Shown here: one piece after another, positions 16,836 through 37,698 of the stretch | Numbering within the stretch: the stretch's first letter is position 1 | Layout: each line of letters starts with the position of its first letter | Source: an uncultured Clostridia bacterium | GTDB lineage: Bacteria; Bacillota; Clostridia; Christensenellales; Borkfalkiaceae | DNA: 44,723 bases | Assembly: GCA_947625555.1 (NCBI GenBank) | Contig: CANQOT010000015.1 | Location: 1 to 44,723, forward strand | Direction of reading: 5' to 3' | Position numbers and translations under genes: made by a program | Notes under the pieces: model-generated | The model's database searches: none | What the model saw: only the letters and a program-made list of their open reading frames with translations | Told to the model about the DNA's origin: nothing

Positions 16836-16850
16836 TGACAATTTTACATT

Positions 16851-19028: not shown

Positions 19029-20849
19029 TCAATCACGGCGTCCGTATTTCTTGATAAATTCACTTTCCGTTATAAATATCCTGCGCCCTTTTGTTCTGTT
19101 AAAAGGAGAGACGTATCCCATCTTTTCCATCCATTCGATCGTTCTCGCGGCATGAAGGTAGCCGATGCCGCAAAGACGTTGCACAAGCGAAATAGATACC
19201 TCTCTCGTCCGGATCACGATCGCCAAGGCCTTTATGCAGTATGGATCGTCCGGATATTCCTGTGCGATCTCTTGGGCCGACACATTCTCCGCGCATGTGA
19301 ACTTATCACTTGCTTGTTCATCAAAATTGGCCTTATAAGTCTTTTTGGCCGCTGCAACGCCCGAAAGTAATACCTCATGCGGGATATAGGCTCCCCGGAT
19401 CCGCCTACATTGCACGTCGTCCCCTTCTCGTATGAGCATATCGCCGCATTCAAAAAGGTTTTCCGCGCCACATTCGCCGAGGATCATGTCAGAATTGCTT
19501 CTATCGCCCACCCGAAAAGCGATACGCGTGAATGCACTCATCTTGAGATCTGCCAGAATTGCATTGACGGGCTGCATTGCGAGTACAAGATGGATCCCCG
19601 CTTCGTTCGACTTTTGCATCAAATGCCGAACCTCTTCCCCGATGTTACACTTCGTCGCCAAAATAAAGTCCTCGTACCCATCCACAATGTAGACAATGCG
19701 GGGAAGTTTCTCCTCGTCATTTTTGCTCGCCGCGTTGTATTTTGCAATGTCCCTTTCGCTATTCTCCGCCAATTGGCCTTCGAAAAGCTGAAACCTGCGC
19801 TTTACTTCCTCATTTGCCCATTGAAGTGAATGAAAAAACTGTTCTGCACCTGTTATGATCTGTCCCGTAAGAAGATGCGGCATCCCATTGTAACATGCAA
19901 ATTCCGTGTTCTTTGCGTCACACAAGACAAGCCGGACGTCCTCGGGAGAATATCGCGCAATGAAAGTATAGATCATGGTGTGAAGAAAAGTTGATTTTCC
20001 CGAATGGCGCGATCCACCGATCAAAATGTGTTTCAGGAGGGCAATGTCGCCGTAAACATTCTCTCTCGCCTCATCTTTCCCAATAGCAAACATCAAAGAA
20101 TCCTCTTTATGCCACCGATCGTTTCCGTCATGGATCATCGTGTTCGCCAACACGATCTCGCGCTTTGTCGCATGAGGAGAACCCTCTGCGGATTTCGTTA
20201 AATCGTGACCGGCTTTTTCGGTCTCTTGGGTTATAACGGGCTCCCCTTCATCTTTGAAAGCGCCCTCTTCGCCATCGTCCGAATCATCGGTATCTTCGGA
20301 AACATCTATTCCATCATCTTCCCCCAAAATGTCATCTAACTCTTCCCGCATTCTTTTGAGAAGCTCCCACTTGGGAAATCCTCCCGCTCGCCGCAATACA
20401 TTAAGCGCTTCGATATCATCTTCGTCAAAATCGCAAGAGTCCGCATCGGGATCATCGGCACCATCCTCGAAGTCCGATTCTTCAAATGAGACCATTTTTG
20501 TGTTTTTTCTGGAATTTTTTGTGATGACCCACTCGGAATCCAACAGCTTGTTAAGCCTCATCGAGCCTCTTTTCGAACTGCTTTGTTGCTTTCTCCCTTT
20601 TGCGTATTTTAAGATGACCTCCCGAAGGACTTTAATACCGATCAAGATATCGTAGATATCCTGCTCTCTCTTGCGGATGTATTTCTTTTCTTCTAAACCT
20701 AAGAGTCCTTCTATAATTTTGTATAACTTAAACGCACTTGTCCTCTCGGGGGTCATCTCATCGATCTCTTTTGCGGTGATTGTTTTTTTGCCCTTATTCA
20801 AATTCTCAAGCATGCCTCGCAGCGCGGCCCATTCATAATCGATTTCCAT
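19029..20849 (-). CDS. soluble FtsK/SpoIIIE-like ATPase with winged-helix tail
   Basis: The 606-residue protein lacks the membrane segments of FtsK. Residues 1-100 are helical and 100-225 are an acidic, low-complexity linker. The motor domain (about 240-500) has Walker A GGSRHSGKST (278-287). Its Walker B region is IVYIVDGYED, where the usual Asp-Glu is Asp-Gly. The C-terminal about 70 residues (DDPYCIKALAIVI, VQRLCGIGYLHAARTIEWME) match the FtsK gamma winged helix that reads DNA. In canonical family members this motor pumps double-stranded DNA. The start overlaps the upstream FtsH-fusion gene by 17 bases, so the two are translationally linked. Confidence 0.85.
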   Translation of the reverse strand: MEIDYEWAALRGMLENLNKGKKTITAKEIDEMTPERTSAFKLYKIIEGLLGLEEKKYIRKREQDIYDILIGIKVLREVILKYAKGRKQQSSSKRGSMRLNKLLDSEWVITKNSRKNTKMVSFEESDFEDGADDPDADSCDFDEDDIEALNVLRRAGGFPKWELLKRMREELDDILGEDDGIDVSEDTDDSDDGEEGAFKDEGEPVITQETEKAGHDLTKSAEGSPHATKREIVLANTMIHDGNDRWHKEDSLMFAIGKDEARENVYGDIALLKHILIGGSRHSGKSTFLHTMIYTFIARYSPEDVRLVLCDAKNTEFACYNGMPHLLTGQIITGAEQFFHSLQWANEEVKRRFQLFEGQLAENSERDIAKYNAASKNDEEKLPRIVYIVDGYEDFILATKCNIGEEVRHLMQKSNEAGIHLVLAMQPVNAILADLKMSAFTRIAFRVGDRSNSDMILGECGAENLFECGDMLIREGDDVQCRRIRGAYIPHEVLLSGVAAAKKTYKANFDEQASDKFTCAENVSAQEIAQEYPDDPYCIKALAIVIRTREVSISLVQRLCGIGYLHAARTIEWMEKMGYVSPFNRTKGRRIFITESEFIKKYGRRD

Positions 20850-23800
20850 GTTTCTCTTTCTCCTTTTCGCATAAATTTCTCAAATCCGTTTGGTCGATAT
20901 TGACCTTTTCGAGGAGTGCGTTGGATACGCTTCTTATTTGTTCGAGATTGGATTCTATTAAAGAGCGCGCCCGTACACTTTGCGACTGGATGAGCGTCTT
21001 TACCCGTCGCATGACCTGCGGAGACGAGCGCTGAATCTGATCGATAAAGACGGGGAGATCGTCATCCATGCCGTACTCGCAAAACATACTTACCGCAAGT
21101 TCTGTCGCAGCCTTTAGGTCGCTGCTTGCACCCGAAGTAATGCCCGCCTCCCCATAAAAGGACCGCTCGGCTTCCCTACCCGCCATCATGATTGCAATGC
21201 GATCCAAACATTCCTCTCGGGAAAGCACAGTAATACCTTCATCGCCATAGTACACATATCCACCATAGCCGCCACGAGCGCCAATGGTCGCATATGAGGG
21301 CATCAGACCCAACAGGGAGGAGACAACAGCGTGTCCCGCCTCGTGAATCGCAGTATGTTGCAATTCCCTTTCTCCCCGTTGTTTGCTCTCTCCATCCGCA
21401 TATCGCTCAAAAGCCTCGTTCAAAAGAACATCTGCGATTGTTTTCCCCTCTCCGCTATATGCCTCCCGAAGGGCATTTTGAAGTACATTATCCAGCTCTC
21501 CGAGCGACCAACCGATCGAACGCCTTGCAAGATTTTCAATCATCCGTGAAGATACCTCATTTTGATATTGGGAAATCCGATCGGACAAATAGCGCTTCCG
21601 TGCTTCGGAATCGGGCAAATCAATATGTATCTTGCGGTCAAACCGACGCAGGAATGCAGGGTCAAGAAGCGTCTTGCCTTTCTTAAAGTTAAAATTCGTA
21701 GCTGCGATCAAGAAAACCGGGACATCCGAATTATCTGCAAACCCATCCATTTCTGAAAGGAGAGCATTGAGTGCTTCCGTACTACCTTCGTTTACGGAAT
21801 CCTCTCTCGCTTTGGCAATCGCATCAATTTCATCGATAAAGATCACGGCGGGAGCATATTTTCGCGCGGTCACAAACAGATCCCGCACGGCTCGGGCGCC
21901 TTCGCCCTGCCATTTTTGCCTGAATTCGGAAGCATTTTTTTGGATAAAAGGGAGATGCGCTTCGTGGGCAAATGCTTTCGCAAGCATAGTTTTCCCCGTA
22001 CCCGGATCGCCCTCCAATAATATCCCGCGCGGTAACCGCAACCCCTTCCGGATATATTTTTTGGGGTCTTTCAAAACGGTCAGGATCCGAATCATCTCCT
22101 CCTTGGCATCTTTTGCCCCATATATATCGTCGAATTGAATATTCGGTATTTCCCGTTTGGTTGCAAATTTCTCAATATCACCGGCATCTTGGGCCAAAGT
22201 AACATCGATATGCGTGATGGATAAGATCGCCGTCTGCGGGGGTTCGAAGGAATAAGCAGTTTGAAATCTTACGACTTTGTTGGCGCGAAACAGGGTCTGC
22301 GCAACGTCGGTAAATTTCGATCCGCTCAAAATTTCCCCCACCCATTCGGCCAAAAATCTTTTTCTCCCGCGAAAAACGTCGGTCGCTCCATGATCCAGAT
22401 AAAACAGAAGCGGCACATCCGATGTTGCATTTAGATGATAGACATAGACAGGGATCGCCTCCCGCTCGGTCAAAGAACCGAATAGCCGTCCGGAAAAGTT
22501 CTTTTCTTCCTCTTCCGAATCCAATATTGCCAGAGAGATATCTCCGCCCTTCACCGCATCCTCAAATGAGGTTCCGTCCGAAAAAAGAATTTCGGCCTCA
22601 TCGGATTCGTACTGACGGAAAATCTTTCTATGCACCTTCTTACAGCAGACCAAAACACGCGTCTTGTTGTGGCTATGAAACACCTCCTCTGCTTCGGGCG
22701 ATTCGGTGGCCGAGTCAAACTCACATCGCACTGCGATGAACGGTCTTTTCTGTGCACGATTCAGTTCTACCAGCCGAACGAGGTTCTTCGAAAAAAATTC
22801 CTTTACCGCTTTGATCACCACGCGAATGTCCGCTTGTTCTCCGATTCCGAGAATGATGAGCTCCGCCAGCATCTTCCTGTTTACTTGTAGCTCCAAACCG
22901 TATTTATCTCTATAATATTTTTCTTCTTTTGCAATTTCTTTTACCGTGATCCGATGCAAGATTTCGGGACGCAATTTGTTAAAAAGAATGATTTTCCCTG
23001 TAGATAAACGGGAAATGAGCGCATTCGAAAAATATGGCGTTTGCGTCTGCGGATTCACTTCCGTCCTCAATGCCCGAATGATTACCGACTGTGAAACATT
23101 CGAAAGGTTATATGTCGTAAGAGATCTGTCATAGAGCTGTTTCCCAATATTCATGATTACGATGATAATAACGTTTCGGAAACTGACAGTCCGTTCTGTA
23201 AACAAATCCTTCGTTTCTCCGCGATCAAATACTTGCAAAAATCTGTTCTGTACGTTTGCATGCGCTTTTTCGAACTCATCCAAAATGACGACCGAAATGG
23301 GGTTTTCTTCAACAAAAGAAGTAAGACTCCCCTTTTCGGCGGCCTTAAAAGACCGATTCACGCCAAACAAATCGCAAAGACCGATTTCCCGGTCGTTGAA
23401 AGTGCTCATGTCGAGATGTAAAATGGGGCGATGGAGTGCCTCGGCAATCCTTTCCCCCATCATCGTCTTGCCCGCTGCGGAGGGCCCCATAAACGTTAAA
23501 AGCCCTCCGACGGCGTGCACGTTTTCACGGTTATTGATGCCGAAAAGATACTCTTTGACCGCTTGTACGGCATACGCCTGACCTTCAATATCGGAAAGAT
23601 GAGAATCCAACTCTTTAATCAAAGAGTAATCCTCAGTCAGTTTTACCTCGGTATATTGGGGGGTATTGCCGTTTACATTCACATATACTTTTTGACTTTT
23701 TACAATGCTTTTCTGCCTCACGGTCACACCCCCTTTTCGCTTCGTGCCGGAATGAAGCGGCTCCTCTTTTTCCTTTTGTTGGATAATATTTGATAAAACA

Positions 23801-23889
23801 GAACAAGAATTTTGTTTCGCCGTCTTTTTATCGGCGATCTGCCGCAAAACCGCAACAAGATTGCAGATTGATGTTGTTTTATCGCTCAT
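20833..23889 (-). CDS. soluble ClpB-like AAA+ / receiver-like / FtsH AAA-M41 protease fusion
   Basis: The start is set at the ATG at 23889 (AAGGAG upstream), giving 1018 residues. A first AAA+ module of ClpB/ClpX type spans about 95-385, with Walker A GPSAAGKT (135-142) and Walker B VVILDEFEK (200-208). A receiver-like alpha/beta domain follows (about 410-525, RVLVCCKKVHRK, ISLAILDSEEEE). The FtsH part begins near 580 with Walker A GDPGTGKT (627-634) and VIFIDEID (682-689). The M41 zinc site HEAGH (849-853) has a third ligand candidate Asp924 in SGASSDLKAAT. All protease residues are present. FtsH normally has two membrane segments; none is here, so this should be a cytoplasmic unfoldase-protease. 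It overlaps both neighbouring genes. Confidence 0.88.
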   Translation of the reverse strand: MSDKTTSICNLVAVLRQIADKKTAKQNSCSVLSNIIQQKEKEEPLHSGTKRKGGVTVRQKSIVKSQKVYVNVNGNTPQYTEVKLTEDYSLIKELDSHLSDIEGQAYAVQAVKEYLFGINNRENVHAVGGLLTFMGPSAAGKTMMGERIAEALHRPILHLDMSTFNDREIGLCDLFGVNRSFKAAEKGSLTSFVEENPISVVILDEFEKAHANVQNRFLQVFDRGETKDLFTERTVSFRNVIIIVIMNIGKQLYDRSLTTYNLSNVSQSVIIRALRTEVNPQTQTPYFSNALISRLSTGKIILFNKLRPEILHRITVKEIAKEEKYYRDKYGLELQVNRKMLAELIILGIGEQADIRVVIKAVKEFFSKNLVRLVELNRAQKRPFIAVRCEFDSATESPEAEEVFHSHNKTRVLVCCKKVHRKIFRQYESDEAEILFSDGTSFEDAVKGGDISLAILDSEEEEKNFSGRLFGSLTEREAIPVYVYHLNATSDVPLLFYLDHGATDVFRGRKRFLAEWVGEILSGSKFTDVAQTLFRANKVVRFQTAYSFEPPQTAILSITHIDVTLAQDAGDIEKFATKREIPNIQFDDIYGAKDAKEEMIRILTVLKDPKKYIRKGLRLPRGILLEGDPGTGKTMLAKAFAHEAHLPFIQKNASEFRQKWQGEGARAVRDLFVTARKYAPAVIFIDEIDAIAKAREDSVNEGSTEALNALLSEMDGFADNSDVPVFLIAATNFNFKKGKTLLDPAFLRRFDRKIHIDLPDSEARKRYLSDRISQYQNEVSSRMIENLARRSIGWSLGELDNVLQNALREAYSGEGKTIADVLLNEAFERYADGESKQRGERELQHTAIHEAGHAVVSSLLGLMPSYATIGARGGYGGYVYYGDEGITVLSREECLDRIAIMMAGREAERSFYGEAGITSGASSDLKAATELAVSMFCEYGMDDDLPVFIDQIQRSSPQVMRRVKTLIQSQSVRARSLIESNLEQIRSVSNALLEKVNIDQTDLRNLCEKEKEKHGNRL

Positions 23890-24199
23890 TTTTACTCCTT
23901 TTTTGTGCTCGCTGCAAAGCTCCGTAATATTCCGCAAAGATTGCGTCAGAAAGCGACTTTTCCTTTACTGCGCGGAAAATCCCCTTTGTATCCACGGAAA
24001 ACACAAGGGCGGCATGGACACCCAGTCCCTCAATGGGGGCAAGCGGTCGAAGAATACAATAAAGGCCTCCTTTGCGCTGCACGGCAAAAATCTGCTCGAA
24101 GTCAATTTGGTTCCTTTGACGGTTTTTTAGGGTTATCGGTTCTCTTTCATTTGCATCAAAAAGTGTTCTGCGAATACATTCATAACTTTTGTCTTTCAT
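23879..24199 (-). CDS. small protein upstream of the FtsH fusion
   Basis: The 106-residue protein has a strong AGGAGG site before its ATG and overlaps the FtsH-fusion start by 11 bases. The central part (FEQIFAVQRKGGLYCILRPL, then AALVFSVDTKG) resembles the short beta-rich DUF1292-type fold, but this is only a pattern impression. It may be an adaptor or subunit of the protease. A terminator upstream (24273-24311) suggests that it opens a third transcription unit. Confidence 0.75.
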   Translation of the reverse strand: MKDKSYECIRRTLFDANEREPITLKNRQRNQIDFEQIFAVQRKGGLYCILRPLAPIEGLGVHAALVFSVDTKGIFRAVKEKSLSDAIFAEYYGALQRAQKRSKNER

Positions 24200-24272
24200 A
24201 CACCCTCCTGTTATTTCTCTTATCTTCTCTTTGCGTTTGCTTCATTTATAAAAATTTTATCTCATTAGATAG

Positions 24273-24311
24273 AAAAAAGGTGCCTTGGCAAGAAACCCTT
24301 GCAAGGCACCT
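24273..24311 (-). terminator. strong terminator after the macro-like/HTH gene
   Basis: A long stem (24278-24292 with 24298-24311, one bulge) is followed on the minus strand by TTTTTT. It lies 20 bases past the stop at 24332. Confidence 0.88.
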
Positions 24312-24331
24312 GATTCATCTACACTCTCTCG

Positions 24332-25207
24332 TTATGTTGACTTTTCCTCTCTGGAATGTTCCCCCAAGAGCGGAAGCCCATAATAAGTCAAGCAACAGTT
24401 GACCTCATAGACATCATAGATCTTTTCTTTAAGAAAAAAACGGACGATCCTGTCTGTCAGGTCGATATTGCCGAGATGATACCCTGCGGAATGATAGAGT
24501 TTCTGCGCTCCCTCTTCGTCGAGTTTAAGCCCAATGACCAATGCAGCCACCGTGGATTTAGACGGTCTGTATTCGATGGTGTAATTCAAGCATTTTGAGA
24601 ATGTCGACTTTGAGATGCCGCATGCTCTATATACTTCTGAAAATTTCCGAAAGGATCTCGCCTCAATCAAGTCATTGAGAAGATCGCGGAAGCACTTCTC
24701 CCCCGAAACTTTTTGAGGCCCTTTCTTGAGATGTCTTTCGAGTTTCTCTTCAACTTCACTCCAATCGGTGTAAGACTGTTGCTCTGTCTCCGTTACGGGA
24801 GCAGTTATCGCATGCTCTACCGTTTGCAGAATAGCGTCATTTCCTTCCGCGGGCAAATAAACATTTATTTCGAGCGTCCGATTAGGCGAAGCGGCACCGC
24901 ATTCCGTCAACACGTCGAGCAAAGTGTTCCATACATACGGGGCAAGTGACCGCTCGGATGCAAACGTTTCGCCGTCGATTGCAAGCGAACCATATCCCCG
25001 CTTTTCTGCCAAAACAAGCGCGCCTTCAAGCCCTTCGCGCAAACATTCTTCAAAGGTTTCCTCCATGGGATCGACGGCCCCGACCATGATGCAGTTCCCG
25101 CCGGCATTCTGCCCCTCTTGGACAGTCCCCGGAAGAAGCGCCGCGCTTTTTGTCACCAAGCAATCGGCATTGATTTTTTCTTTGTCAAAATTTATGAATA
25201 TTTTCAC
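24332..25207 (-). CDS. macro-domain-like protein with C-terminal helix-turn-helix
   Basis: The preferred start is GTG at 25207, which has AAAGGAG 7 bases upstream; an ATG at 25249 has no site. Numbers below count from that GTG (291 residues). Residues 1-130 look like a divergent macro domain, with a strand followed by ADCLVTKSAALLPG, then GYGSLAIDGETF, then LEINVYLPAE. Macro domains bind ADP-ribose or related NAD products, which would suit the TIR protein upstream. The C-terminal about 110 residues hold an HTH (VYRACGISKSTFSKCLN, RPSKSTVAALVIGLKL) and a helical tail ending YEVNCCLTYYGLPLLG, a module I associate with Firmicute XRE-like regulators. The macro assignment is tentative. Confidence 0.6.
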   Translation of the reverse strand: MKIFINFDKEKINADCLVTKSAALLPGTVQEGQNAGGNCIMVGAVDPMEETFEECLREGLEGALVLAEKRGYGSLAIDGETFASERSLAPYVWNTLLDVLTECGAASPNRTLEINVYLPAEGNDAILQTVEHAITAPVTETEQQSYTDWSEVEEKLERHLKKGPQKVSGEKCFRDLLNDLIEARSFRKFSEVYRACGISKSTFSKCLNYTIEYRPSKSTVAALVIGLKLDEEGAQKLYHSAGYHLGNIDLTDRIVRFFLKEKIYDVYEVNCCLTYYGLPLLGEHSREEKST

Positions 25208-25318
25208 TCTCGTACTCCTTTCTCCTTTTAGGGAGATATTTTCTTGCATTACTCATTTTACACCATTTCTTTTTGAAAAACGATGCTCTATAAGCTACCT
25301 TTTTTTCTTTTTTGTGCT

Positions 25319-28300
25319 TTACTTTCCGACCCCGTTATATCCCCAAACTACAGGGCGACCATCCGGATTCCACTCTCGAGCCCATCTAAAAGGGCGATGC
25401 TTTACTTTACAATAAATTGTAAGAAAAGGGCAATAAGCGAACGTGCCGCTCCCCATTGAAACAACGCCCTTTGGAATCACTATATTTTTAAGTGATCGAC
25501 ATCCGGAGAAGGCATCATCCCCAATCATGTTTATGCCTTGAGGGAGATTCATTTCTATAAGCGATAAACAGTCTCCAAACACCATCTTTCCAATTTTGGA
25601 TATCCCTTTGGAGAGTACTATATTTTGAAGCGAAATACAACCGTAAAATGCCCAATCCCCAAGGGATGTCACGCTTTGAGGAATAGTAATGCTCGTAAGC
25701 GATTTACAACCCCTGAACGCACTACCCCCAATAGAGGTAACGCTTCGAGGGATATCGATGCTTTGAATAAATGTACAATCGCGAAACGAACCAAATCCAA
25801 TTTCCGTCACGCCATTGGGAATTACAACGTGTTGTGATGTCCCCGAATAGCGTATCAATTTTCTACCCGTTATCTGAAATTCCTTTTCAATTTTGCTTTG
25901 TTGCGGTCTCTTGAAATCTCCCCTACTATTCTCGGTGGATTGATTGAAATACCCGCAATTCCTAAACGCATTCTCTCCAATCGAGGTCACGCTCTCGGGG
26001 ATAACAATGCTTGTAAGTGACCTGCAATTCCTAAACGCATTCTCTCCGATTGAGGTTAATTGGCTTTGCCCCTGGAATATCACTCTCTCAAGCGCAATAC
26101 AGTCATTGAATGTATTCGCACCGATCCTGGTAACACTCTCGGGAATCACGATACTTTTAAGCGATCTGCAACCTGAAAACGCATTGCTTCCAACCGAAGT
26201 CAATTCGCTACCCCACTCAAATCTCACATTTTTAAGTATATCGCAATCTTTGAACGCTTCCTCTCCAATCGAAATCACACTTGCGGGAATTAATACTTCT
26301 TTTGCGCTACCGAGATATTTTTTGAGCTCCCCGTTGACGATTAGGAACTGTGCGAGATATTCCTTGTATTTTTTTTCTTCCTCTTCTCTTTGCTTTCTCT
26401 CTTCCTCGGCTTGGCGTTTTCTCTCTTCCTCTTCTATACGCTTTTTCTCTTCCTCAGCCTTGCGGGCAGCTTCGGCGGCTTTGCCCGATAATTTACGGAC
26501 CTCCTCGCCCTGGGGCGATTCGGTTGACGCCAAACTTTGTGTTTTAATCTGTTTTTGTTTTTTTAATTCGTCTTGCAATGCTTGCTCACGCTTTTTACTT
26601 GCCTCTAATTCATTCCGCAATGCTTGCTCGCGCGCCTGTGATTCCTCAGCCTTGCGGGCGGCTTCGGAGGCTTTTCGCGCTTCCTCAGCCTTGCGCCTTT
26701 CCTCTGCGATGCGGGCTGCTTCTTGCGCTTTACGCTGCTCTTCGGCAGTTCGAACGGCTTCGGCGGCTTTGCCCGATAATTTACGGGTTTCCTCGCCCTG
26801 GGGCGATTCGGTTGACGCCAAACTTTGTGTTTTAATCTGTTTTTGTTTTTCTAATTCGTGTTGCAACGCTTGCTCACGCTTTTTACTTGCCTCTAATTCA
26901 TTCCGCAATGCTTGCTCGCGCGCCTGTGATTCCTCATTGTAGGCTTTTAATCGCTCGTTCAGATATGCATGAGAATCAAGAAGTTTGATCCCGCCACACT
27001 TTGGGCAATAACCATACTGGGAAGAATATGATCCGTTACAATTGGGGCAGTACTTCAAATAACGTTCGATATAGTTCTTCCCGCGCTCAACGCGGTTTTT
27101 TACGGCTTCTACAACGTCTTGATTGGTCCAAGTTTTCCCCGCTTCGGTCATTTTATAATCTTGAATGTTTGTGCCGCGCAATCTGTCGGGAAGCGCTACG
27201 GGACCGTCCTTAAAAAAAACGATGATTTGTTGCTCGGGGCTTTGATTCCTCTGTTTCAAGAAATTGCAGAAGCGCGTGTATTCATTCTTGACCCACGGTG
27301 TATCAAGATAGTCCTTATTGCTACAAATAATAATCATACACCGAGCCGTTGAAAGCGCATACATAATGTGTGCTTCAAATTCAGGGCCATTATCCTTTAT
27401 TGCTTTGGTGCAACTATATGGCGCACAAAAAGTACTGAGAAGCGGAGGATCATTCTCCCCGTCCCCTTTTATGTTAAGATCATTATATAATCCTTGTTCC
27501 AAAAGCCATTTATAATCTTCGGTATCTTGATCACCGTCATGCTCTTTTAGACAAATAAAACAGTCAAAATTTATTTTCTTATCTTCGAATCCTCGGTAAA
27601 AACATAAAGTTTCCTGTACTTTTTTTGCAAACTCCTCCATCCGCTCCTTAATTTGTTTATCTTCTTTTTTGCTTTTTTCTTCCGCCAACTTAAAAAAAGA
27701 ATTATGGAAAAGGTCGACATTTTGATCAAAGCATATGGGTTGTTCGCAGTTCTTGACGGGGTCCCATATGATTTGGATCTTACAATCTGCAAGCGCTCGA
27801 CCGAAATATGCCTCCGCCTGAACTGCTGTATCGTACGTAGCTTTTTCAAAAAGCTTCTCAGCGTGGTCGAAATCAGCCTCGCGCAAGGCATTCCACGCCG
27901 CTTGAAGTTCACAAGAACGGTCCCATGAGAGGTTTTTTAATGTGTCATGAATGGTTTCCAACATTCCCATCAGTGAGCCGTATTGCTTTTCTGCCTGATA
28001 GGAAGCTTGTTTGCACAACGCTTGAATACTTGCCAAAAGATCACGGCCGTCTGCAAGCTGACCGCGCAGTTCCGCCATGATGCGATCCATCACCTCTGTG
28101 CGCTCTTTATTTTTATCATTTTGAAGTGCCAATAGGTTCGCTTTGATTGCGCCGATGACATCTTTTTCCGTCGCAGCTTGCCTCTCTTCTATGGCGCAAA
28201 GTCTTCCCATCACTTCGTTTTCGATCAATTCCTTGATCAAATCTGCCTCGCGCGCAACATTTCCATCTATTGCGGACATTTTTTGCAAGAGTTCGTCCTT

Positions 28301-28387: not shown

Positions 28388-28414
28388 TCCGCGGCCCTCT
28401 CCTCTTTCGTCGCT

Positions 28415-29125: not shown

Positions 29126-29150
29126 ATGTTCTGTCTCCTCATTTGTCCGC

Positions 29151-29180
29151 ATTATATCATAATCATTCATGTTTCGTCAA
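29151..29180 (-). promoter_or_regulatory. promoter of transcription unit 2 (two-TM, TIR-LRR, macro-HTH)
   Basis: TTGACG (29175-29180) lies 18 bases before TATAAT (29151-29156) on the minus strand, about 25 bases ahead of the corrected start at 29125. Confidence 0.8.
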
Positions 29181-29214
29181 TTGTTGCGGGTAAAATGTTG
29201 CTTTCAACTCCACG

Positions 29215-29246
29215 AAAAAAGCCCCTCGGCTTGCGCCGAAGAGCTT
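29215..29246 (-). terminator. terminator of transcription unit 1
   Basis: The stem GCTCTTCGGC/GCCGAGGGGC with a four-base loop is followed on the minus strand by TTTTTT (29215-29220). It lies 14 bases past the stop at 29261 and separates units 1 and 2. Confidence 0.85.
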
Positions 29247-29260
29247 TTCTGGGTTTGCGG

Positions 29261-30763: not shown

Positions 30764-30788
30764 ATCATCTCTCCTTTTTGCTTGTACA

Positions 30789-33455
30789 TTAAGATTGCCC
30801 TTTGTATCCCCATATTACGGGACGGCCGTTGGGATTCCAATCCTCGTCCCATCCGCCAGGTTTTTCCGCCGTCTCGCAGTAAATTGTAAGTGAACTGCAG
30901 GCATAAAACGCGTGTGATCCGACTTTGGTAACGCTCGCGGGAATGACAATGCTTGTAAGCGAAATACAATCCTCAAACGCACCGTATCCGATGGAGGTCA
31001 CGCTTGTCGGAATCTCTATGCTTCTAAAAGTACAATACGCAAATGCGAAGCTTGCTATAGAGGTCACGCTACCGTCTTGGGGAATAATACTTTCATTACA
31101 CCCGATGACCAAAGTCTTGCTTGCCGTTTGGATGATACAATTCCTACTTGCATGGTAGGTTGTATTCGCAGAGTCAACTTCGATATTTTTAAGCGATTGA
31201 CATCCCGCAAACGCAAAACTTCCAATGGAGGAGACATTCTTGGGAATTATAATATCCGTAATTTTATTGCAAGCATAAAATGCCCCATCCTCAATTAAGC
31301 TCAATTGGCTGTCCCCTTCAAACATTACGTTTTCGAGTGAGTTGCACCAAGAAAACGCATAGCTACCAATTGATGTTACACTCGCAGGAATTGTAATTTT
31401 TATAAGCGAATAGCAAGACTTAAATGCCTCATCTACAATCAATCGGGTGCCCGGCTTTATTATATATGTACCTGAAATCGTCTCTTTCGCTTCAATCAAA
31501 CAATTATCGATATAAAGTACCAGTTGTTTATCCCAATTATGTACGTCATTGTAAATTGATGTGCCTAAAAATGCATCATCACCGATTTTGGTTACACTCG
31601 CGGGGATCGAGATATTCGAAAGCGAACTGCAATTATAAAATGCATCATCACCGATTTTGGTTACGGTTTCGGGAATCGAGATGTTCGAAAGCGAACTGCA
31701 ACCATAAAATGCATACCATCCAATCGTGGTCAATTGACTATCCCTTGCAAACGTGACGCTTGTAAGTGAACTGCAACCCATAAAAGCCCCGCTCATATAT
31801 CCGCCATCAATTTTGGTTACGGTTTTGGGAATCGTAATGCTTGTAAGAGATGTGCAATTCATGAACGCTTCCTCCGCAACCAATGTTCCCCCGGTGAGTA
31901 CGACTTCTTTGAGGGAAGCGGGAACGTATTCGGCGTTTTCTGAAGAATCACTCGCACCGAAGATATAGCCGAAATACGTTGCATCGGAGCCGTTCCCCAC
32001 CACAGGAAGAGAAAACTTTTCAAGTCCGCTACAACCCATAAACGCTTTCTCGCCGATCGAGGTCATGCCGTTGGGAATTGTGATTTCCGTAAGAGACTCG
32101 CATCCTGAAAATGCACTATGACCGATTTCAGTTACAGTTTCTGGAATCGTAATGCTTGTAAGAGATGTGCAATTCATGAACGCTTCCTCCGCAACCAATG
32201 TTCCCCCAGCGAGGACGACTTCTTTGAGGGAGACAGGAACGAATTTGGCGTTTTCGGAAGAATCACTTGCGCCGAAGATATAGCCGAAGTGTGTTTCATC
32301 ATATCCGTTCCCAACAAAGGGAAGCGTGATCTTTTCAAGTCGGTTGCAACCCATAAATGCTTTCTCACCAATTGAGGTCACGCTGTTGGGAATCGTGACA
32401 TCCGTAAGCGACGCGCAGCCTGAAAACGCAAATTGCCCGATCGCCTGTAAGCTCTCGGGAAGGTTAAGCCGGGTGATCTCCGCGCCGTAAAAGGTGTATG
32501 CAGGAACCGATTCGATCCCCTCTTCCAATGCAATCTCGCCGGAGATGGGCTCTTTGCTCAAAGTCAAACTTTTCGCATAGATGAGAGGGTTGGCATATGC
32601 CCCCTCGAACGTGATCTTGCACCACGCCTGCAAATCGTTGATATTTACATTTTGGAGATTTATGCAACCTTGAAAAGCGTTGCCGATATATGTCACGCTC
32701 TCCGGGATGACAATTTTTTCCAATGAAGAAAAATTGGTAAAAGCACTGTCCTCGATCCTTTGGATCGAAGTTGAAAGATTGACGCTCTCTACTGGGTCAT
32801 TCTCCGACGTGACGGCTTTTCCGATAGCGGTAACGCGATAACGGTTCCCCTCTTCGTCTTCAACATAATTGGGGAAAATAATGTCCTCTTGTAATTCTTT
32901 TACGCTGACCGTCGCCGTTCCATCTTTGTTTACAGTTACCCAAAATCCCTCATACTCAAAGCCTGTGGATTTGAAATGTTGCCATAAAACGATCCCCCCA
33001 CCGACCAAGAGGAGTACCGCAAGCACCCCCGCCAATACCGAGAGCACGATCGTTCTCTTTTTTTGCTTCTTCTTGGTCGTCTTGGTCAAATTATACAATT
33101 CGGCAGTCTTTTGACGAATGTCCTCCGTGTTTGTAAGGATTTTCTTCAAAGACCCATTGAGCAATTGGGCATGGTCCAATACATCTTGAAGGGGAACGCG
33201 CTCGGAATTGTTTTTTACATAAGAATAGCACTCATTAGTAATTTTATTGAGCTCCTCCGGCGACAACTCCTCTCCAACCGTCTCCTTCAAAAAGCGTCTA
33301 AAGTCTGAAGTAGTCGGCTTCCCTCCATCTGAAGGAAGATTGAACACAAAGATATTGCCGTTTTGGATCCCCACGGTAAGTCCGCCGTAATTATTGCCTT
33401 GGCTTATCGTTGTAGAATAATCATCAAAATGTGTATTGCTCGTGTTGGCGTCCAT
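30789..33455 (-). CDS. membrane LRR protein with an N-terminal RHIM-like motif
   Basis: The 888-residue protein starts with STTISQGNNYGGLTVGIQNG (14-33), which matches the C-terminal motif of the protein encoded just upstream at 33482. A helical domain follows (about 45-125). A Lys-rich stop (KKKQKKR) precedes one membrane segment (135-158), so the N-terminus should be cytoplasmic. The remaining about 700 residues are outside and consist of BspA-type LRR_5 repeats (pattern: AFxxCxSLxxIxIPxSVTxIG). Two stretches of about 105 residues are near-copies. It looks like a surface sensor with a cytoplasmic signalling motif, possibly talking to the two-TM protein 26 bp upstream. Confidence 0.85.
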   Translation of the reverse strand: MDANTSNTHFDDYSTTISQGNNYGGLTVGIQNGNIFVFNLPSDGGKPTTSDFRRFLKETVGEELSPEELNKITNECYSYVKNNSERVPLQDVLDHAQLLNGSLKKILTNTEDIRQKTAELYNLTKTTKKKQKKRTIVLSVLAGVLAVLLLVGGGIVLWQHFKSTGFEYEGFWVTVNKDGTATVSVKELQEDIIFPNYVEDEEGNRYRVTAIGKAVTSENDPVESVNLSTSIQRIEDSAFTNFSSLEKIVIPESVTYIGNAFQGCINLQNVNINDLQAWCKITFEGAYANPLIYAKSLTLSKEPISGEIALEEGIESVPAYTFYGAEITRLNLPESLQAIGQFAFSGCASLTDVTIPNSVTSIGEKAFMGCNRLEKITLPFVGNGYDETHFGYIFGASDSSENAKFVPVSLKEVVLAGGTLVAEEAFMNCTSLTSITIPETVTEIGHSAFSGCESLTEITIPNGMTSIGEKAFMGCSGLEKFSLPVVGNGSDATYFGYIFGASDSSENAEYVPASLKEVVLTGGTLVAEEAFMNCTSLTSITIPKTVTKIDGGYMSGAFMGCSSLTSVTFARDSQLTTIGWYAFYGCSSLSNISIPETVTKIGDDAFYNCSSLSNISIPASVTKIGDDAFLGTSIYNDVHNWDKQLVLYIDNCLIEAKETISGTYIIKPGTRLIVDEAFKSCYSLIKITIPASVTSIGSYAFSWCNSLENVMFEGDSQLSLIEDGAFYACNKITDIIIPKNVSSIGSFAFAGCQSLKNIEVDSANTTYHASRNCIIQTASKTLVIGCNESIIPQDGSVTSIASFAFAYCTFRSIEIPTSVTSIGYGAFEDCISLTSIVIPASVTKVGSHAFYACSSLTIYCETAEKPGGWDEDWNPNGRPVIWGYKGQS
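31836..32380. repeat. 315-bp-period duplication within the membrane LRR gene
   Basis: aatgcttgtaagagatgtgc begins at 31836 and again at 32151, and the sequence that follows stays closely similar, encoding VAEEAFMNCTSLTSI and FGYIFGASDSSENA in both. The 105-codon step keeps the reading frame. Confidence 0.8.
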
Positions 33456-33481
33456 TTATTATCTCCTCTGCGAGTGAAAGG

Positions 33482-34186
33482 TCAATGATTCTTGTTTTGC
33501 GTGTTTGTGCCGTAATTTATTCCGATTTGAATGCCCCCGGCGTTGGGGCCTTGTGTGATATGAGTTGAATGGTCATCCTTGGAAATATTGATCTTCACGA
33601 TCGTCTTTTCCGTCGCTTCTAATACGGACGCATCGTCTTTCGCTCTTGTCGTCTCTTCAAGCTGAAAACTCTTTTCCTTGTTGGAATCAGAAATCTGTTC
33701 GTAGATAAAAAATACTCCTGCGAGGACGAAGTCCGCCGCACCAATTACAGCAGATATCGTATTGGCAAGTTTTTCTTTTAAGATGCCTACCGAACCGAGC
33801 ACGGTAAACACAAGTGCCGCCACGATCAAAATAAGCACAAGCGGGATCATGATACGGCTAAAGATCCTCTCGCGCCCATTGGCCTTTTTTACATCGTTTA
33901 GACACGTCATAAGACTGCGGCGGCTGGCATACATCTGGCACTGTGCGAGCATATTTATAAACCAACTGCGAAGGTCTTCTACATCGGTGTTTCTGATAAA
34001 CCGTTCAAAGCAATCTTGAGTTTTGAGAACGCTGAATGCATCGTCCAAAAGCAGGATCTCTTCATCTTCATCGCAACAGAATAAAACGTCGCGCATACGG
34101 TCGACGTATGCAAAAAGCGGACGTTTCTCGGGATCCACTTTCAAAGTACTAAACGTCAAGATATTAAGGAGCTTTTTCTTTGTCAT
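33482..34186 (-). CDS. two-TM protein with a C-terminal RHIM-like (amyloid-type) motif
   Basis: The 234-residue protein has a cytoplasmic helical N-terminal part (1-108), two membrane segments (about 110-135 and 141-163) and a cytoplasmic tail. The tail ends STHITQGPNAGGIQIGINYG (207-226) plus a few Asn-rich residues. The IQIG core and surrounding Gly/Asn match the RHIM-like pattern (V/I-Q-V/I-G) used by animal RIPK proteins and by amyloid signalling motifs in fungi and bacteria. The same motif opens the next gene's product. It is related to the protein at 28415. Function as an amyloid adaptor is inferred. Confidence 0.78.
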   Translation of the reverse strand: MTKKKLLNILTFSTLKVDPEKRPLFAYVDRMRDVLFCCDEDEEILLLDDAFSVLKTQDCFERFIRNTDVEDLRSWFINMLAQCQMYASRRSLMTCLNDVKKANGRERIFSRIMIPLVLILIVAALVFTVLGSVGILKEKLANTISAVIGAADFVLAGVFFIYEQISDSNKEKSFQLEETTRAKDDASVLEATEKTIVKINISKDDHSTHITQGPNAGGIQIGINYGTNTQNKNH

Positions 34187-34198
34187 AAATCATCCTCC

Positions 34199-35206
34199 TT
34201 ACAATTCGATATTGTTGGACTTGCACCATTTTTCGAGAAGTTTCTCGACGGTATCCATGGGGGTGGCGTTTGCGAGACCGTCGGCGGATCTATCGTTGAC
34301 TTTCACTGTTTTGGATTTGTTGATACCGATACATTCTCCCTTGCGGTTAAAGACAGGACCGCCCGAATCTCCGGGATTGGAGGGAGCCGTATGGACCAAA
34401 TTGCCTTCATCATCTTTGGTATATTTTACTTCGCCGCGGAACGGAGCAAGACCCATGGCAAAAGCGTTACCGATCACAACGCAGTCGGCGCCTTGACAGA
34501 GAGACGAATAGTCGGCAATACGCTTTACCGCCGCAAATCGGCCGACTTCCTTTGCGTCAAACTTACACAACGCGACATCCGTCTTTTTGTCGGAGAACAG
34601 CACTTCGAGCTTGTGCCGTTTTTGCTCTCCGCAGAGTTTCATCGTAATTTTTGGAAAGTAAACTCCGACCTCGTCGTCAAAAACAACGTGGTCGTTTGTG
34701 AGGAGATAGCCCTTTTCCGAAATAATGAATCCCGTGCCGCTTTCGCTCTTTCCGTTCCCCGCCACGGAGATCTCGGCGACCGCCGTCTTGTTTTTTTCAA
34801 AGACGTCCGCACCCAAACCCTGCGTCTCTTTCGTCTCTTCGACAAGGCCTGTTATGTCGATGTCATCCTCGTCCGCCGAAAATGCTTTAGGATACTCGGG
34901 CGGGCTATCGGGAAGAACTATGGGTGGCGTCCTTTTTTGAGGGATTTCACTTTGCGCGGGCAAGCCGAAGCATTCACGCACGAAGTCCGTGACCCCATTC
35001 TCGTACAGTTCACGGGAGACCGCGATCCAACGATCCATAAATGCTGCCAACTTCGCCCGGTCGAGGATCGTCGAAGCTCTTTTATAGCTTTCACACGCGC
35101 TCTCAAGCAATAACAAAACATAAGAACGAGCTTCGCGCGGTTGATTCAACCGCGCAAGCTCTCTTGCGTTACAAAATATCGTTTTGATTTGTTTTCCGGT
35201 AAGCAT
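34199..35206 (-). CDS. cytoplasmic trypsin-like serine protease with a MIT-like N-terminal domain
   Basis: The 335-residue protein has no signal peptide. Residues 1-82 are a three-helix module (NARELARLNQPREARSYVLL ... MDRWIAVS ... VTDFVRECFGL) like that of the RuvB-like protein at 29261. A Pro-rich, acidic linker follows. The S1C protease domain (about 140-335) has a full triad: His173 (LLTNDHVV), Asp210 (KKTDVALCKF) and Ser281 (NPGDSGGPVF). A trypsin-like protease kept in the cytoplasm is typical of bacterial conflict systems where it may activate or destroy a partner. The next gene begins 12 bp downstream. Confidence 0.85.
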   Translation of the reverse strand: MLTGKQIKTIFCNARELARLNQPREARSYVLLLLESACESYKRASTILDRAKLAAFMDRWIAVSRELYENGVTDFVRECFGLPAQSEIPQKRTPPIVLPDSPPEYPKAFSADEDDIDITGLVEETKETQGLGADVFEKNKTAVAEISVAGNGKSESGTGFIISEKGYLLTNDHVVFDDEVGVYFPKITMKLCGEQKRHKLEVLFSDKKTDVALCKFDAKEVGRFAAVKRIADYSSLCQGADCVVIGNAFAMGLAPFRGEVKYTKDDEGNLVHTAPSNPGDSGGPVFNRKGECIGINKSKTVKVNDRSADGLANATPMDTVEKLLEKWCKSNNIEL

Positions 35207-35212
35207 TATCTA

Positions 35213-36415
35213 TCAGTTTTTCGGCTTCTTCAGAAGGCTGAGAAGGTCCTCGTAGGGCATGCCGCGATTGTAGGCTTCAAAGCGCAGAAGCATCTCGGGC
35301 GTCACGCCGTTGATGAATTTTTTGATCACTTCGTCGCAGTCCTGCATCGTCACCCGCTCGCCCATAGGCCTTCCGATCTGTTTATTGAGGACGTTCTTGA
35401 CTTCTCTTTCGAGCGGACGATTTGCAATCTGCTTCATGACTGCCTTGATGTCGGCTCCCGAATATCCCTCGAGCTTTGCCGCCAAGGCATCAACCGTAAC
35501 GTTTTCGTCGTGGGGGAGTTTGTCGAGCTGCATGCCGACGAATTTTCTGACCGCATTTCCGTCGGGCAGAGGGACGTATATCTGCGTCTCGAATCTGCCG
35601 CCGCGTTTCAAAGCCGCGTCGAGTTTCCACGGGAGATTTGTCGCCGCAACGATGATGCGTAACTGCCCCTCCCTCTTCGTCTTCATGAAGCCGTCCATAC
35701 AGGTGAGCAGTGTCGTCAAAATGGATTTCGTATGACGGCTGTCCTCGGAATCGCGGTCGGAACAGATGCTGTCGATCTCATCGAAAAAGATGATGCAACG
35801 GTTGAGTTCGGCCGCCTGTGCAAAAATATCGCGGATATTCTTTTCGGCAACGCCCACTACAGAGGCGAGAACTTCGCTCGTCTGCACGACTGCGATCTTG
35901 CAATTAAGTGCCCCGGCAAGGCATTTGACTATGTGAGTTTTGCCCGTCCCGGGAGGGCCGTAAAGCAGGATCTGTGTCCCCAACTGCTCTCCTCTGAACT
36001 TGCGGTAGATCTCGCGAAATTCGGGACGAAGAGGAGCGACGACGTCCACCATGAACGCGTCCTTGACCTCCTGTACGCCGATGATATCCTTAAACCCGAG
36101 GTCGGGCACTTCATCCGAAAACCACTGCTGGGGCACATAGTACGGATCGGTCCCCTCGTTCGCCGCGCCCGAAGAACGCACGGGCGTAGCGGGGGTCCGA
36201 GAATTTTTCGCAAGATAGGACGCAGCGGAGAGACATTGCTTTCGATAGGTCTCCTTGAGGCTTGTCCCGACATTGGGCTTAACGCATTCATCAAACCCGA
36301 TGCGGAGCAACTCCATACCGATGTCGGAGATCGCTTCTGCATCCTGCGCTCTGACTGCCTCGTTAAAAGAGGATACTTTGGAGTTAAAAACTCCCATCAT
36401 GTTTGCTTCTGCCAT
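35213..36415 (-). CDS. Vps4/katanin-like AAA ATPase with a MIT-like N-terminal domain
   Basis: The 400-residue protein belongs to the meiotic (Vps4/katanin/spastin) AAA clade. It has Walker A GPPGTGKT (153-160), Walker B IIFFDEID and the clade signature ATNLPWKLDAALKRGGRFE with IYVPLPDG. Residues 1-72 form a helical MIT-like module (NEAVRAQDAEAISDIGMELL ... RKQCLSAASYLAK). The C-terminus (VTMQDCDEVIKKFINGVTPE) parallels the Vps4 C-terminal helix. The pore-loop aromatic usually in KWxG is replaced (SVVG). Vps4 pulls ESCRT-III subunits out of membrane polymers, and an ESCRT-III-like gene sits 2 bp upstream, so the pair probably work together. Confidence 0.82.
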   Translation of the reverse strand: MAEANMMGVFNSKVSSFNEAVRAQDAEAISDIGMELLRIGFDECVKPNVGTSLKETYRKQCLSAASYLAKNSRTPATPVRSSGAANEGTDPYYVPQQWFSDEVPDLGFKDIIGVQEVKDAFMVDVVAPLRPEFREIYRKFRGEQLGTQILLYGPPGTGKTHIVKCLAGALNCKIAVVQTSEVLASVVGVAEKNIRDIFAQAAELNRCIIFFDEIDSICSDRDSEDSRHTKSILTTLLTCMDGFMKTKREGQLRIIVAATNLPWKLDAALKRGGRFETQIYVPLPDGNAVRKFVGMQLDKLPHDENVTVDALAAKLEGYSGADIKAVMKQIANRPLEREVKNVLNKQIGRPMGERVTMQDCDEVIKKFINGVTPEMLLRFEAYNRGMPYEDLLSLLKKPKN

Positions 36416-36417
36416 GT

Positions 36418-37029
36418 TTACTTCTTCTTTTCGTCCTCGATGATGCCTTCGTAGTCGATATCGCCCGTCATGCCGTCAAATTCGGGCTTGGCCACCGTCT
36501 CGGGAGCGACCTTGGGTTTAATGCGCTCAACCATTGCCGCATATTCTGCCTTGAACCAATCTGCGTTTTCCTCTTCGGAGATGTTTGCGCCCTCGAGACG
36601 ACTTGATATCGTCTCCACGGGCTGAGGTTCAAGGATCTCGTTGAGCTTGGCGATCTCGGCCTCCGTCTTGCTCATATCCTTAAACAGACCGCTGATGCTC
36701 TTGGACAACTTGCTGAAATCAGGTGTTTCCGCAAGAAGACCCTTGCAGCCTGCGATCGCTCCGGGAAGTTTCCCGAGTTGCGACATGGCCTGTGCGGTAA
36801 AAACGCCGAGCCTTACGTTGCCCTTCAAAGTGTTGAGCCGCTCGGCAAGTACATCCACCCCGTGCTTTTGTTTGATGAGCTGTTTGGCTTTTGCATCGTC
36901 TCCACGGAGTGCCGCTGCGTCTATGTGCCCTTTGTACTCTTCGCTGAATTTTTCGAGGGTATGTACACCCTTGTCAAGCGAATCCATTGCCGCAATGATC
37001 TTTTCGTCGTTGGTTTGTTTCTTTGCCAT
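36418..37029 (-). CDS. ESCRT-III/Snf7-like coiled-coil protein (candidate)
   Basis: The 203-residue protein is almost all helix, with a basic first half and an acidic C-terminus (GDIDYEGIIEDEKKK), the charge layout of Snf7/CHMP proteins. ALRGDDAKAKQLIKQKHGVD parallels the Snf7 helix 1-2 hinge (A-x-x-G-x-x-x-x-A-K). PDFSKLSKSISGLFKDMSKT with AEIAKLNEIL parallels the later helices of CHMP2/CHMP3. It lies 2 bp before a Vps4-like gene. I rate Snf7 homology as likely by pattern and context, not proven; a generic coiled-coil partner is the alternative. No membrane segment or signal is present. Confidence 0.6.
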   Translation of the reverse strand: MAKKQTNDEKIIAAMDSLDKGVHTLEKFSEEYKGHIDAAALRGDDAKAKQLIKQKHGVDVLAERLNTLKGNVRLGVFTAQAMSQLGKLPGAIAGCKGLLAETPDFSKLSKSISGLFKDMSKTEAEIAKLNEILEPQPVETISSRLEGANISEEENADWFKAEYAAMVERIKPKVAPETVAKPEFDGMTGDIDYEGIIEDEKKK

Positions 37030-37054
37030 AATATATTTCTCCTTAAATTTTTTG

Positions 37055-37648
37055 TTAGTTGAGGTTGGGTTTGTTTTTCGTGTTCACGTCTACCGTATCG
37101 GAAGGAATGATTTCGTCGATCTCTCCGTTAAACTCGGCCACGTCGTAATAGCTACGGGCATTCGCTTCGTGAATTTCGAGGTCGTTCATGAATTCGTCCT
37201 GTTCCTTCATCTTTCTTGCCAGCGCAAGAGCCTCTTGGCTCATATCATTCAGCATGTCCTCTGTGATTTCAATGAGTTTATCAAGATACTTGAGATTGTT
37301 TGCAGCCATTTTGAGCTGGTGTTCAGGGATGGCCATCCACACATCGCTGTAAGCGCCCTCATCGAGCTTGCCGTGCATGATTTCAATGCATTTTACAAGC
37401 ATATAGATAAGATAGTGCATCTTTTCAAGTTGCTTTTTTTGGAAGTGAATGCCCTCGCGCGTTGTGGGTTTCCGCGACTTGACCTTGCCGTAACGGTAGC
37501 GGTAAAGCCCTTCGACTTCTTCCAAAAGAAAGAATTCCACAAAGGCTTCCCTGTCAAACCTCGAAATATGCTCGGGTAACCGTTTAATCCATTCTTTAGC
37601 CCTCTTGACGCGTTCAGCATGCGATGTGATAAATTTTTGTTGTTGCAT
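37055..37648 (-). CDS. helical protein of unknown function, first gene of the ESCRT-like unit
   Basis: The start is set at the ATG at 37648 (AAAGGAGG upstream). The 197-residue protein is basic at the N-terminus (HAERVKRAKEWIKRL, RYRYGKVKSRK), has two long amphipathic helices (about 68-98 and 108-150) and an acidic C-terminus. That charge layout again resembles ESCRT-III subunits, but I see no motif that settles it. It is 25 bp upstream of the Snf7-like gene and headed by a TATAAT -10, so it likely starts the operon. Confidence 0.75.
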   Translation of the reverse strand: MQQQKFITSHAERVKRAKEWIKRLPEHISRFDREAFVEFFLLEEVEGLYRYRYGKVKSRKPTTREGIHFQKKQLEKMHYLIYMLVKCIEIMHGKLDEGAYSDVWMAIPEHQLKMAANNLKYLDKLIEITEDMLNDMSQEALALARKMKEQDEFMNDLEIHEANARSYYDVAEFNGEIDEIIPSDTVDVNTKNKPNLN

Positions 37649-37669
37649 GATTTGCCTCCTTTGATTTTT

Positions 37670-37697: not shown

Positions 37698-37698
37698 T

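Follow-up and report, generated by a model that had tools for sequence, protein, structure and literature searches.

Contig CANQOT010000015.1 of an uncultured Clostridia bacterium (assembly GCA_947625555.1; genome of 1.65 Mb in 41 contigs) carries thirteen open reading frames (ORFs), g01 to g13, all on the minus strand and spanning positions 19029-37678 in the ORF list. The whole contig (C15, 44,723 bases) is called the window below. By sequence comparison, five of these genes (g01-g04 and g07) form a conserved chassis, which encodes a coiled-coil protein, an ESCRT-III-like protein, a classical AAA ATPase, a trypsin-like protease and a RuvB-like ATPase. To this chassis is coupled, almost certainly to judge by the same comparisons, a swappable payload formed by a membrane protein with two transmembrane (TM) segments and a partner, the two being joined by a matching motif in most pairs and fused in some loci. 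The locus as a whole is best explained as a modular sensor-executor system for conflict or cell death built on an ESCRT-like chassis, a reading to which we assign a probability of about 0.45; for the cassette as such, the balance tilts slightly towards a role in conflict or cell death.

The conservation of the chassis was followed with an alignment of the RuvB-like protein (g07) as bait, taking one genome per species. This gave 35 loci, reduced to 34 when a weak Burkholderiales match was dropped; seven of the 34 sit on contigs already found by earlier searches. Gene order was read in the 23 loci with at least 6.5 kb of upstream sequence, the other 11 having too little and being left out. The strict order g01-g02-g03-g04-g07 is kept in 20 of these 23 loci. 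With family models built partly from the very loci counted, g02 is present in all 23, g01 and the trypsin-like g04 in 22 each, and the AAA gene g03 in 21; the presence of RuvB is given by construction, because it was the bait. The exceptions, at the thresholds used, are a locus without the AAA gene (L074; G, C and L numbers are our handles for genomes, contigs and loci), one without the trypsin-like gene (L083) and a distant one (L085) without the coiled-coil and AAA genes. In some relatives g01 is present in two copies, and one genome (Lapin-002 bin92) holds two copies of the chassis with different neighbours (L056 and L080). The source records of the 34 loci name Clostridia, Bacilli, Bacillota, Acholeplasmatales, Anaeroplasmataceae, Anaeroplasma and Mollicutes; many are marked ‘Lapin’, which was read as rabbit, and others come from rumen, rectum, colon or caecum samples.

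Among nearer relatives the spread is patchy. A Snf7-like search found a match in two of 151 genomes of the family (the own genome and G137), and an AAA search at E <= 1e-50 in four of 391 genomes of the class (the own genome and three with a distant variant). A trypsin search at E <= 1e-15 covered 297 genomes of the order and matched 91, the own genome among them; the chassis was seen around the match in the own genome and in G678, G550, G663, G589, G738, G728 and G537. The neighbourhoods read were those of these eight genomes and of G520, which has the distant variant; the contig of G589 ends before any RuvB gene. In g04, residues H173, D210 and S281, which we take to be the catalytic residues, are invariant across nine aligned sequences. 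The leucine-rich repeat (LRR), trypsin-like, AAA, RuvB-like, FtsH-fused unfoldase and FtsK parts that a sequence-only reading of the window had named are all borne out by Pfam. For g03, which that reading had called Vps4-like, the classical AAA assignment stands and the narrower name is a loose one: its nearest NCBIfam models are CDC48 (8.8e-51), FtsH (5.9e-44) and CdvC (7.3e-44), all far below cut-off, and its closest PDB entries are of the Cdc48/AFG2 types, a ranking inflated by two-domain chains.

The payload is the variable part of the cassette, and it carries the most distinctive signal. The pairs g05-g06 and g08-g09 are exchangeable among the relative loci, where the partners are TIR-LRR proteins, LRR proteins, proteins with a GTPase-type match or DO-GTPase2 proteins (below cut-off). 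In a leave-one-out comparison g05 groups with 18 other two-TM proteins as one family, which is without a Pfam match. The C-terminal tail of g05 matches the N-terminal head of g06 with a score of 70, reached by none of 1000 shuffles, so that here the RHIM-like resemblance proposed from the sequence is stronger than had been claimed. A tail/head score of at least 40 is reached by 13 of 19 such pairs; among 345 other pairs of neighbouring genes one does so, and among 342 non-cognate pairings 12. None of 100,000 permutations reaches the summed score of the 19. A single-TM gene of L061 that resembles ClpP was placed among the controls by hand, and duplicate loci, L050-L052, L085 and L087 were left out. 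The 13 cognate pairs fall into seven motif clusters, the motif being locus-specific. When the pairs are reduced to one representative per motif cluster, the contrast persists (7/12 against 1/132 off the diagonal; 0/200,000 permutations). Taken singly, 11 of the 19 pairs have scores that none of 1000 shuffles attains. Since different codons are used at 79 of 179 identical motif residues, the identity of the motifs is not only a matter of recent DNA copying.

The explanation that best survives beside the modular reading, although an unlikely one, is that these motifs are ordinary docking elements, working by beta-addition or as a split domain, which tether the LRR or TIR protein to a membrane anchor while the output is that of the TIR or LRR part only. 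The matching of motifs needs nothing more than specific binding, and gene fusions in which the two-TM domain is part of an LRR-type protein (L061, 6.8e-14; L070, 8.6e-10; L055, 6.7e-9; L058, 1.9e-8) show that a stable tether suffices. The composition of the motifs argues in the other direction: they are short, enriched in N, G and I and depleted of A, L, E and R, and a RHIM-like tetrad is present in three of the 19 pairs. The same is true of their placement at the tail of one protein and the head of the next, as in amyloid signalling pairs.

The TIR domain of g09, also named in the sequence-only reading, lies below the Pfam cut-off (TIR_2, 22.9 bits against a cut-off of 28, E 1.3e-4), but a W-V-x-N-E segment, presumably the region of the TIR catalytic glutamate, is kept in g09 and in six relatives (L050, L054, L056, L059, L060 and L078), whereas L051 and L052 have lost it, in an alignment that did not contain L057 and L075. 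Because this segment is kept, NADase activity is possible in proteins of the g09 type. The genome of the window has four more TIR_2 matches above cut-off on other contigs (C5, C25 and C4; L001-L004).

The relation of g02 to ESCRT-III is carried by its predicted fold. Pfam places the Snf7 match of g02 itself below cut-off and, with a best value of 2e-5, matches Snf7 at E <= 1 in five of 13 members of its family. When 177,635 PDB sequences were searched with a profile of 13 sequences, distant relatives among them, CHMP3 came out on top (E 2.4e-4); with a profile of 28 sequences, all from chassis members, the top PDB match was CHMP2A (E 0.0035). The chassis family aligns with distant Snf7-like families at a probability of 94.7% (hhalign); similarity in sequence to Snf7/CHMP is thus found, weakly. 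An AlphaFold2 model of modest confidence (pLDDT 62, pTM 0.47), made from an alignment that includes distant relatives, predicts helices at residues 7-41, 45-86, 88-98, 105-133, 157-170 and 193-202, that is, the long alpha1-alpha2 hairpin followed by shorter helices expected of the ESCRT-III fold. In a Foldseek comparison of this model with the PDB, ranks 1 to 29 all belong to the ESCRT-III superfamily (Asgard and human CHMPs, IST1, Snf7, PspA, Vipp1 and CdvB), the best at E 7.3e-3 and none at or below 1e-3. The Snf7-like label given to g02 from its sequence therefore falls short in Pfam and gains support from the fold search. The predicted helix 193-202 falls at the conserved C-terminal motif of g02, where ESCRT-III proteins have their MIT-interacting motif (MIM) helices; by this analogy the motif may act as a MIM.

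Two further arrangements of ESCRT-like genes were seen in the searches. In genomes of about 1.1-1.2 Mb of the same order, a second ESCRT-like cluster (L051, 6684-18309, from G433:C2; L052, from G450:C17) holds two Snf7-like proteins, an AAA protein with a KWVGESEK loop, a protein read by eye as SPFH-like with a zinc ribbon, a protein of 1222-1256 amino acids with a degenerate TIR-like region and then, by eye, ABC transporters. A compact relative (L050, 8813-14469, from G520:C2) combines a Snf7-like protein, a TIR/TPR protein (TIR_2 9.7e-11), an AAA protein and a trypsin-like protein, and no RuvB-like or LRR gene was seen in that stretch.

Alternatively, the cassette might be a system for envelope stress or membrane repair akin to the phage shock protein (PSP) response, in which the ESCRT-III-like filament and the AAA ATPase would mend the membrane, with the LRR/two-TM pairs as sensors of envelope damage and no killing of the cell. 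PspA and Vipp1 belong to the ESCRT-III superfamily, the payload would sit at the membrane, and in PMC11237479 PspA and Snf7 homologs are described beside AAA ATPases in some bacteria. We consider this improbable, as a patchy distribution and a fast-swapping TIR payload fit conflict better than housekeeping.

The protease and the RuvB-like ATPase of the chassis have a common N-terminal domain, which would serve as an adaptor. The two N-termini align as a single domain (98.1% in hhalign, E 8.7e-14, against 0.2-2.0% for unrelated controls), and at E <= 0.01 the domain is found in g04 and g07 only in the whole genome. For the N-terminus of g03 the values are only 18.9% with g04 and 4.9% with g07, and the claim of an adaptor is accordingly limited to g04 and g07. 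An MIT domain on g03, g04 and g07 was considered and is unsupported by Pfam and by PDB profiles, leaving an analogy only; a single sequence of a distant relative gave a weak match (E 0.15) to the chitin synthase 1 chain 2mpk, which is presumably an MIT domain.

Under the modular reading, an LRR or TIR partner would sense a trigger and cluster, and its N-terminal motif would act as an amyloid-like template for the two-TM protein's tail, as in the HET-S/NWD2 and BASS/Bell pairs. Templating would open the membrane or concentrate TIR NADase there, and the infected or damaged cell would be disabled or die. The ESCRT-III-like filament, the AAA ATPase, the adaptor-bearing protease and the RuvB-like motor would assemble at the same membrane, and the chassis would set the threshold, by membrane remodelling and by removal or cleavage of the signalling assembly. 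Sensing and execution are assigned to the payload and regulation to the chassis because a fixed chassis with tagged swappable pairs is a conflict design and because the tail-head placement is that of amyloid pairs; whether the chassis is a brake or an activator is a guess. The mechanism with all its steps is proposed tentatively, at rather less than even odds. A more specific version, drawn by analogy, would be a bacterial counterpart of necroptosis with a brake, in which the LRR/TIR sensors would impose an amyloid-like motif on a membrane executor, as RHIM/HET-S proteins do, and an ESCRT-III-like filament with its own AAA motors and a protease, two of these enzymes bearing the new adaptor domain, would repair the membrane or take the assembly apart. 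In eukaryotes, ESCRT-III acts against MLKL and gasdermin pores. This version is unlikely; if true, it would bring both NLR-independent amyloid signalling and an ESCRT machine recruited to immunity into bacteria.

Several results weigh against the modular reading or its parts. The rule defining the 19 pairs was fixed after tails and heads had been inspected, six of the 19 score below 40, and in the window itself the g08-g09 match, the other part of the RHIM-like proposal, lacks significance (345 of 1000 shuffles score at least as high). A nine-sequence profile of g02 retrieved coiled-coil and other helical proteins from the PDB and no ESCRT-III, for which reason sequence alone is not decisive for this protein. 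The AAA protein g03 is not specifically Vps4 in the PDB and NCBIfam comparisons; Pfam gave no MIT match in ten N-termini even at E <= 10, and PDB profiles of the adaptor and N-termini rank designed helical or TPR proteins first, not MIT. Searches of phage and plasmid records for relatives of g07 came back empty at E <= 1e-25, and so did a pattern scan of IMG/VR. The flanks of the relatives are mostly housekeeping-like as read by eye, with no family search made, and the defence-island neighbours that the sequence-only reading had suggested looking for thus find no support.

The cassette probably moves between genomes, since its spread is patchy, tyrosine recombinases lie upstream, its neighbours differ and its G+C content is lowered. 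A tyrosine recombinase of one family is found upstream of g01 in six of the 34 loci (L059, L061, L070, L071, L075 and L077), and the flanking genes differ between loci as read by eye. The G+C content is about 0.44-0.53 inside the locus, 0.48 and 0.53 just outside it (16501-18500 and 37501-39500) and 0.55-0.61 farther out, to about 9 kb downstream and to the contig end upstream, so that the locus lies below most of the adjoining DNA. Elsewhere in the window, the stretch 3001-9500 is also low in G+C (about 0.38-0.49) and surrounds a tRNA-Ser gene (6701-6792); it is perhaps a second island. Downstream of the chassis, an Hsp70-like ATPase and ClpP are encoded in L059 (14107-15735 and 17022-17594) and, by Pfam, a TraG-type coupling gene of a type IV secretion system in L053 (14662-16512); genes of similar size recur in other loci. 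The recombinases, together with the TraG-type gene and ClpP identified by Pfam and FtsK-like genes up- or downstream in some loci, could point to a stability or inter-element competition module of an integrative element, not to host defence. This is a distinctly unlikely alternative: the recombinase occurs in a minority of loci, and relatives of g07 were missing from the phage and plasmid records at E <= 1e-25, relaxases not having been searched for.

In the window the thirteen genes that had been read from the sequence are all present as ORFs (Table 1). The gaps within g01-g07 and between g08 and g09 are 2-27 bp; larger ones separate g07 from g08 (90 bp), g09 from g10 (69 bp) and g10 from g11 (132 bp), while g11 overlaps g12 and g12 overlaps g13. 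Of the promoter and two terminators with which the sequence-only reading had divided the locus, promoter-like sites are found at the start of g08 and ahead of g01 (37835-37807), each matching the consensus at 11 of 12 positions, but terminator-like sites are no more frequent than chance would give (24, against 23.9 expected from shuffled sequence). For g01, g05, g08, g10 and g11, neither a Pfam family above cut-off nor an NCBIfam match was obtained. Divergent from the start of the cassette lies a SecB-like gene (38013-38459, plus strand; Pfam 5.5e-11, PADLOC PD-T4-9_C 1.5e-12).

The genes g10 to g13 lie outside the conserved chassis. The C-terminal part of g10 is conserved across ten sequences, and a g10-like helix-turn-helix (HTH) gene is above threshold in 12 of 34 loci, in L072 on the upstream side. 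The macro-like label of the sequence-only reading, and with it a macro domain in g10 as a sensor of a TIR product, is unsupported: Pfam gave no macro match in g10, and the N-terminal part is absent or different in relatives. Among the 297 genomes of the order, 18, counting the own genome, contain the N-terminal half of g12, and the middle region of g12 looks receiver-like by eye. Three g12 contexts were read: in G042 and G082, g11 lies near g12 and the chassis is missing, and in G544 g12 is without g11. Near the chassis, among 34 loci, g12-like genes occur in at least one (L062), g11 in at least six and g13-like genes in at least four (L053, L056, L065 and L078), these being lower bounds because the stretches end 10 kb from the bait. 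That all thirteen genes form one functional system, as first proposed from their common direction and close spacing, is very improbable and largely refuted: relatives of g11 or g13 do occur near the chassis, but g12-like genes are so rare there, and g11-g12 stand without it in two genomes, that the three units once distinguished come apart in part and the chassis is confined to g01-g04 and g07.

Table 1. Features of the cassette and adjoining genes in the window.
Feature	Positions	Strand	Description	Basis
g01	37055..37678	-	helical/coiled-coil protein, first chassis gene	TTG start 37678 or ATG 37648
g02	36418..37029	-	ESCRT-III (Snf7/PspA superfamily)-like, chassis	Pfam Snf7 E 0.005, below cut-off
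g02 C-terminal motif	36421..36465	-	conserved motif GDIDYEGIIEDEKKK	D invariant, E nearly so, 28 sequences
g03	35213..36415	-	classical AAA+ ATPase, short helical-looking N-terminal region, chassis	Pfam AAA 2e-36
g04	34199..35206	-	trypsin-like serine protease, chassis	Pfam Trypsin_2 3e-18
g04 N-terminus	34946..35206	-	putative adaptor domain	homologous to g07 N-terminus
g05	33482..34186	-	two-TM membrane protein (TM near 106, 143), payload	TM scan
g05 tail	33509..33589	-	C-terminal matching motif, contains IQIG (RHIM-like tetrad)	matches g06 head
g06	30789..33455	-	BspA-type LRR protein, N-terminal motif, one TM near 132, payload	LRR_5 9e-125
g06 head	33357..33437	-	N-terminal matching motif	matches g05 tail
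g07	29261..30763	-	RuvB-like AAA+ ATPase with adaptor domain, last chassis gene	RuvB_N 1.8e-16, RuvB_C 1.2e-14
g07 N-terminus	30500..30763	-	putative adaptor domain	homologous to g04 N-terminus
Promoter-like site	29151..29180	-	TTGACG-18-TATAAT at g08 start	11/12, consensus match only
g08	28415..29170	-	two-TM membrane protein (TM near 144, 179), second payload pair	TM scan, leave-one-out family
g09	25319..28387	-	TIR-LRR protein, zinc-ribbon-like stretch, second payload pair	LRR_5 6e-78
TIR match in g09	27152..27391	-	TIR	26.5 bits, below cut-off
g10	24332..25249	-	regulator-like: variable N-part, conserved HTH-like C-part	HTH_26 E 0.019, below cut-off
g11	23879..24199	-	small protein, separable unit, not chassis	with g12, without chassis in L098, L099
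g12	20833..23937	-	AAA_2 (ClpA-type), middle region, FtsH-type AAA and M41 protease, separable	Pfam
g13	19029..20849	-	FtsK-like ATPase, loosely associated	FtsK_SpoIIIE 8e-31

A review (PMC7889193) raises the question of whether signalling amyloids of fungi and bacteria also act in pathways independent of NLRs. The locus family makes this question directly testable, because it offers, in Clostridia and Bacilli, 13 cognate motif pairs in seven clusters with built-in non-cognate controls. If the proposed mechanism were true, one bacterial locus would join amyloid-triggered membrane executors with ESCRT-III, two modules that eukaryotes also join at dying membranes (PMC9622947). Even if the role in death should fail, an ESCRT-III relative accompanied by a trypsin-like protease and a RuvB-like motor with a common new domain would be unexpected.

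Comparison with known systems bears out the view, taken from the sequence alone, that this is an undescribed multi-gene system with conflict-type parts, as far as searches reached: the 13 locus proteins have no matches in PADLOC or NCBIfam beyond generic AAA, protease and FtsK-type ones, no named system emerges, and this gene set is not described in the titles and abstracts of the open-licence PMC papers listed, in most searches the best 8-15 of 20-553. The likeness to IetA and other AAA-bearing PADLOC families is a partial-length generic AAA match only; IetA presumably has a subtilase partner, and none is among the locus genes. As in ESCRT-III/Vps4, CdvB/CdvC and PspA/Vipp1, there is a g02-type fold with an adjoining classical AAA gene and a conserved motif in the C-terminal tail. 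Unlike in ESCRT-III/Vps4 and CdvB/CdvC, the AAA protein is not specifically of the Vps4 or CdvC type and MIT was not detected; unlike in ESCRT-III systems generally, the partners here are trypsin-like and RuvB-like proteins with a common adaptor domain of their own.

With BASS/Bell-NLR, HET-S/NWD2 and HELLP/PNT1 the payload shares adjacent genes, a C-terminal motif on the membrane protein and an N-terminal one on the partner. As in BASS/Bell, the motifs differ between loci, adjacency with a matching motif being found for g05-g06, whereas for g08-g09 the match is not significant. In bacteria, BASS/Bell pairs have an NLR partner, and TIR partners are also reported (PMC7889193 and PMC8086366). 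Here, unlike in these accounts, the partners are LRR, TIR-LRR or other proteins, the membrane protein belongs to a two-TM family and an ESCRT-like chassis adjoins; no NACHT or NB-ARC match was found in g06, g09 or the effectors scanned, and an NLR sensor is thus not among them.

The MoxR-vWA ternary, EAD-coupled and trypsin-NucA systems (PMC7159879 and PMC8195603) likewise couple effectors to a fixed core by homotypic adaptors, and trypsin, TIR and DO-GTPase (below cut-off here) are parts in common. A MoxR-vWA pair is not found at this locus, where bpMoxR stays below cut-off in g03 and g07 and neither vWA nor STAND is above cut-off in the 13 proteins among the matches listed (the best 25 for the three AAA proteins). 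PMC7159879 mentions neither Snf7 nor RuvB, and PMC8195603 neither Snf7 nor RHIM. The parts of the cassette are known; its chassis, its adaptor domain and the coupling of both to NLR-free motif pairs are, as far as searched, new.

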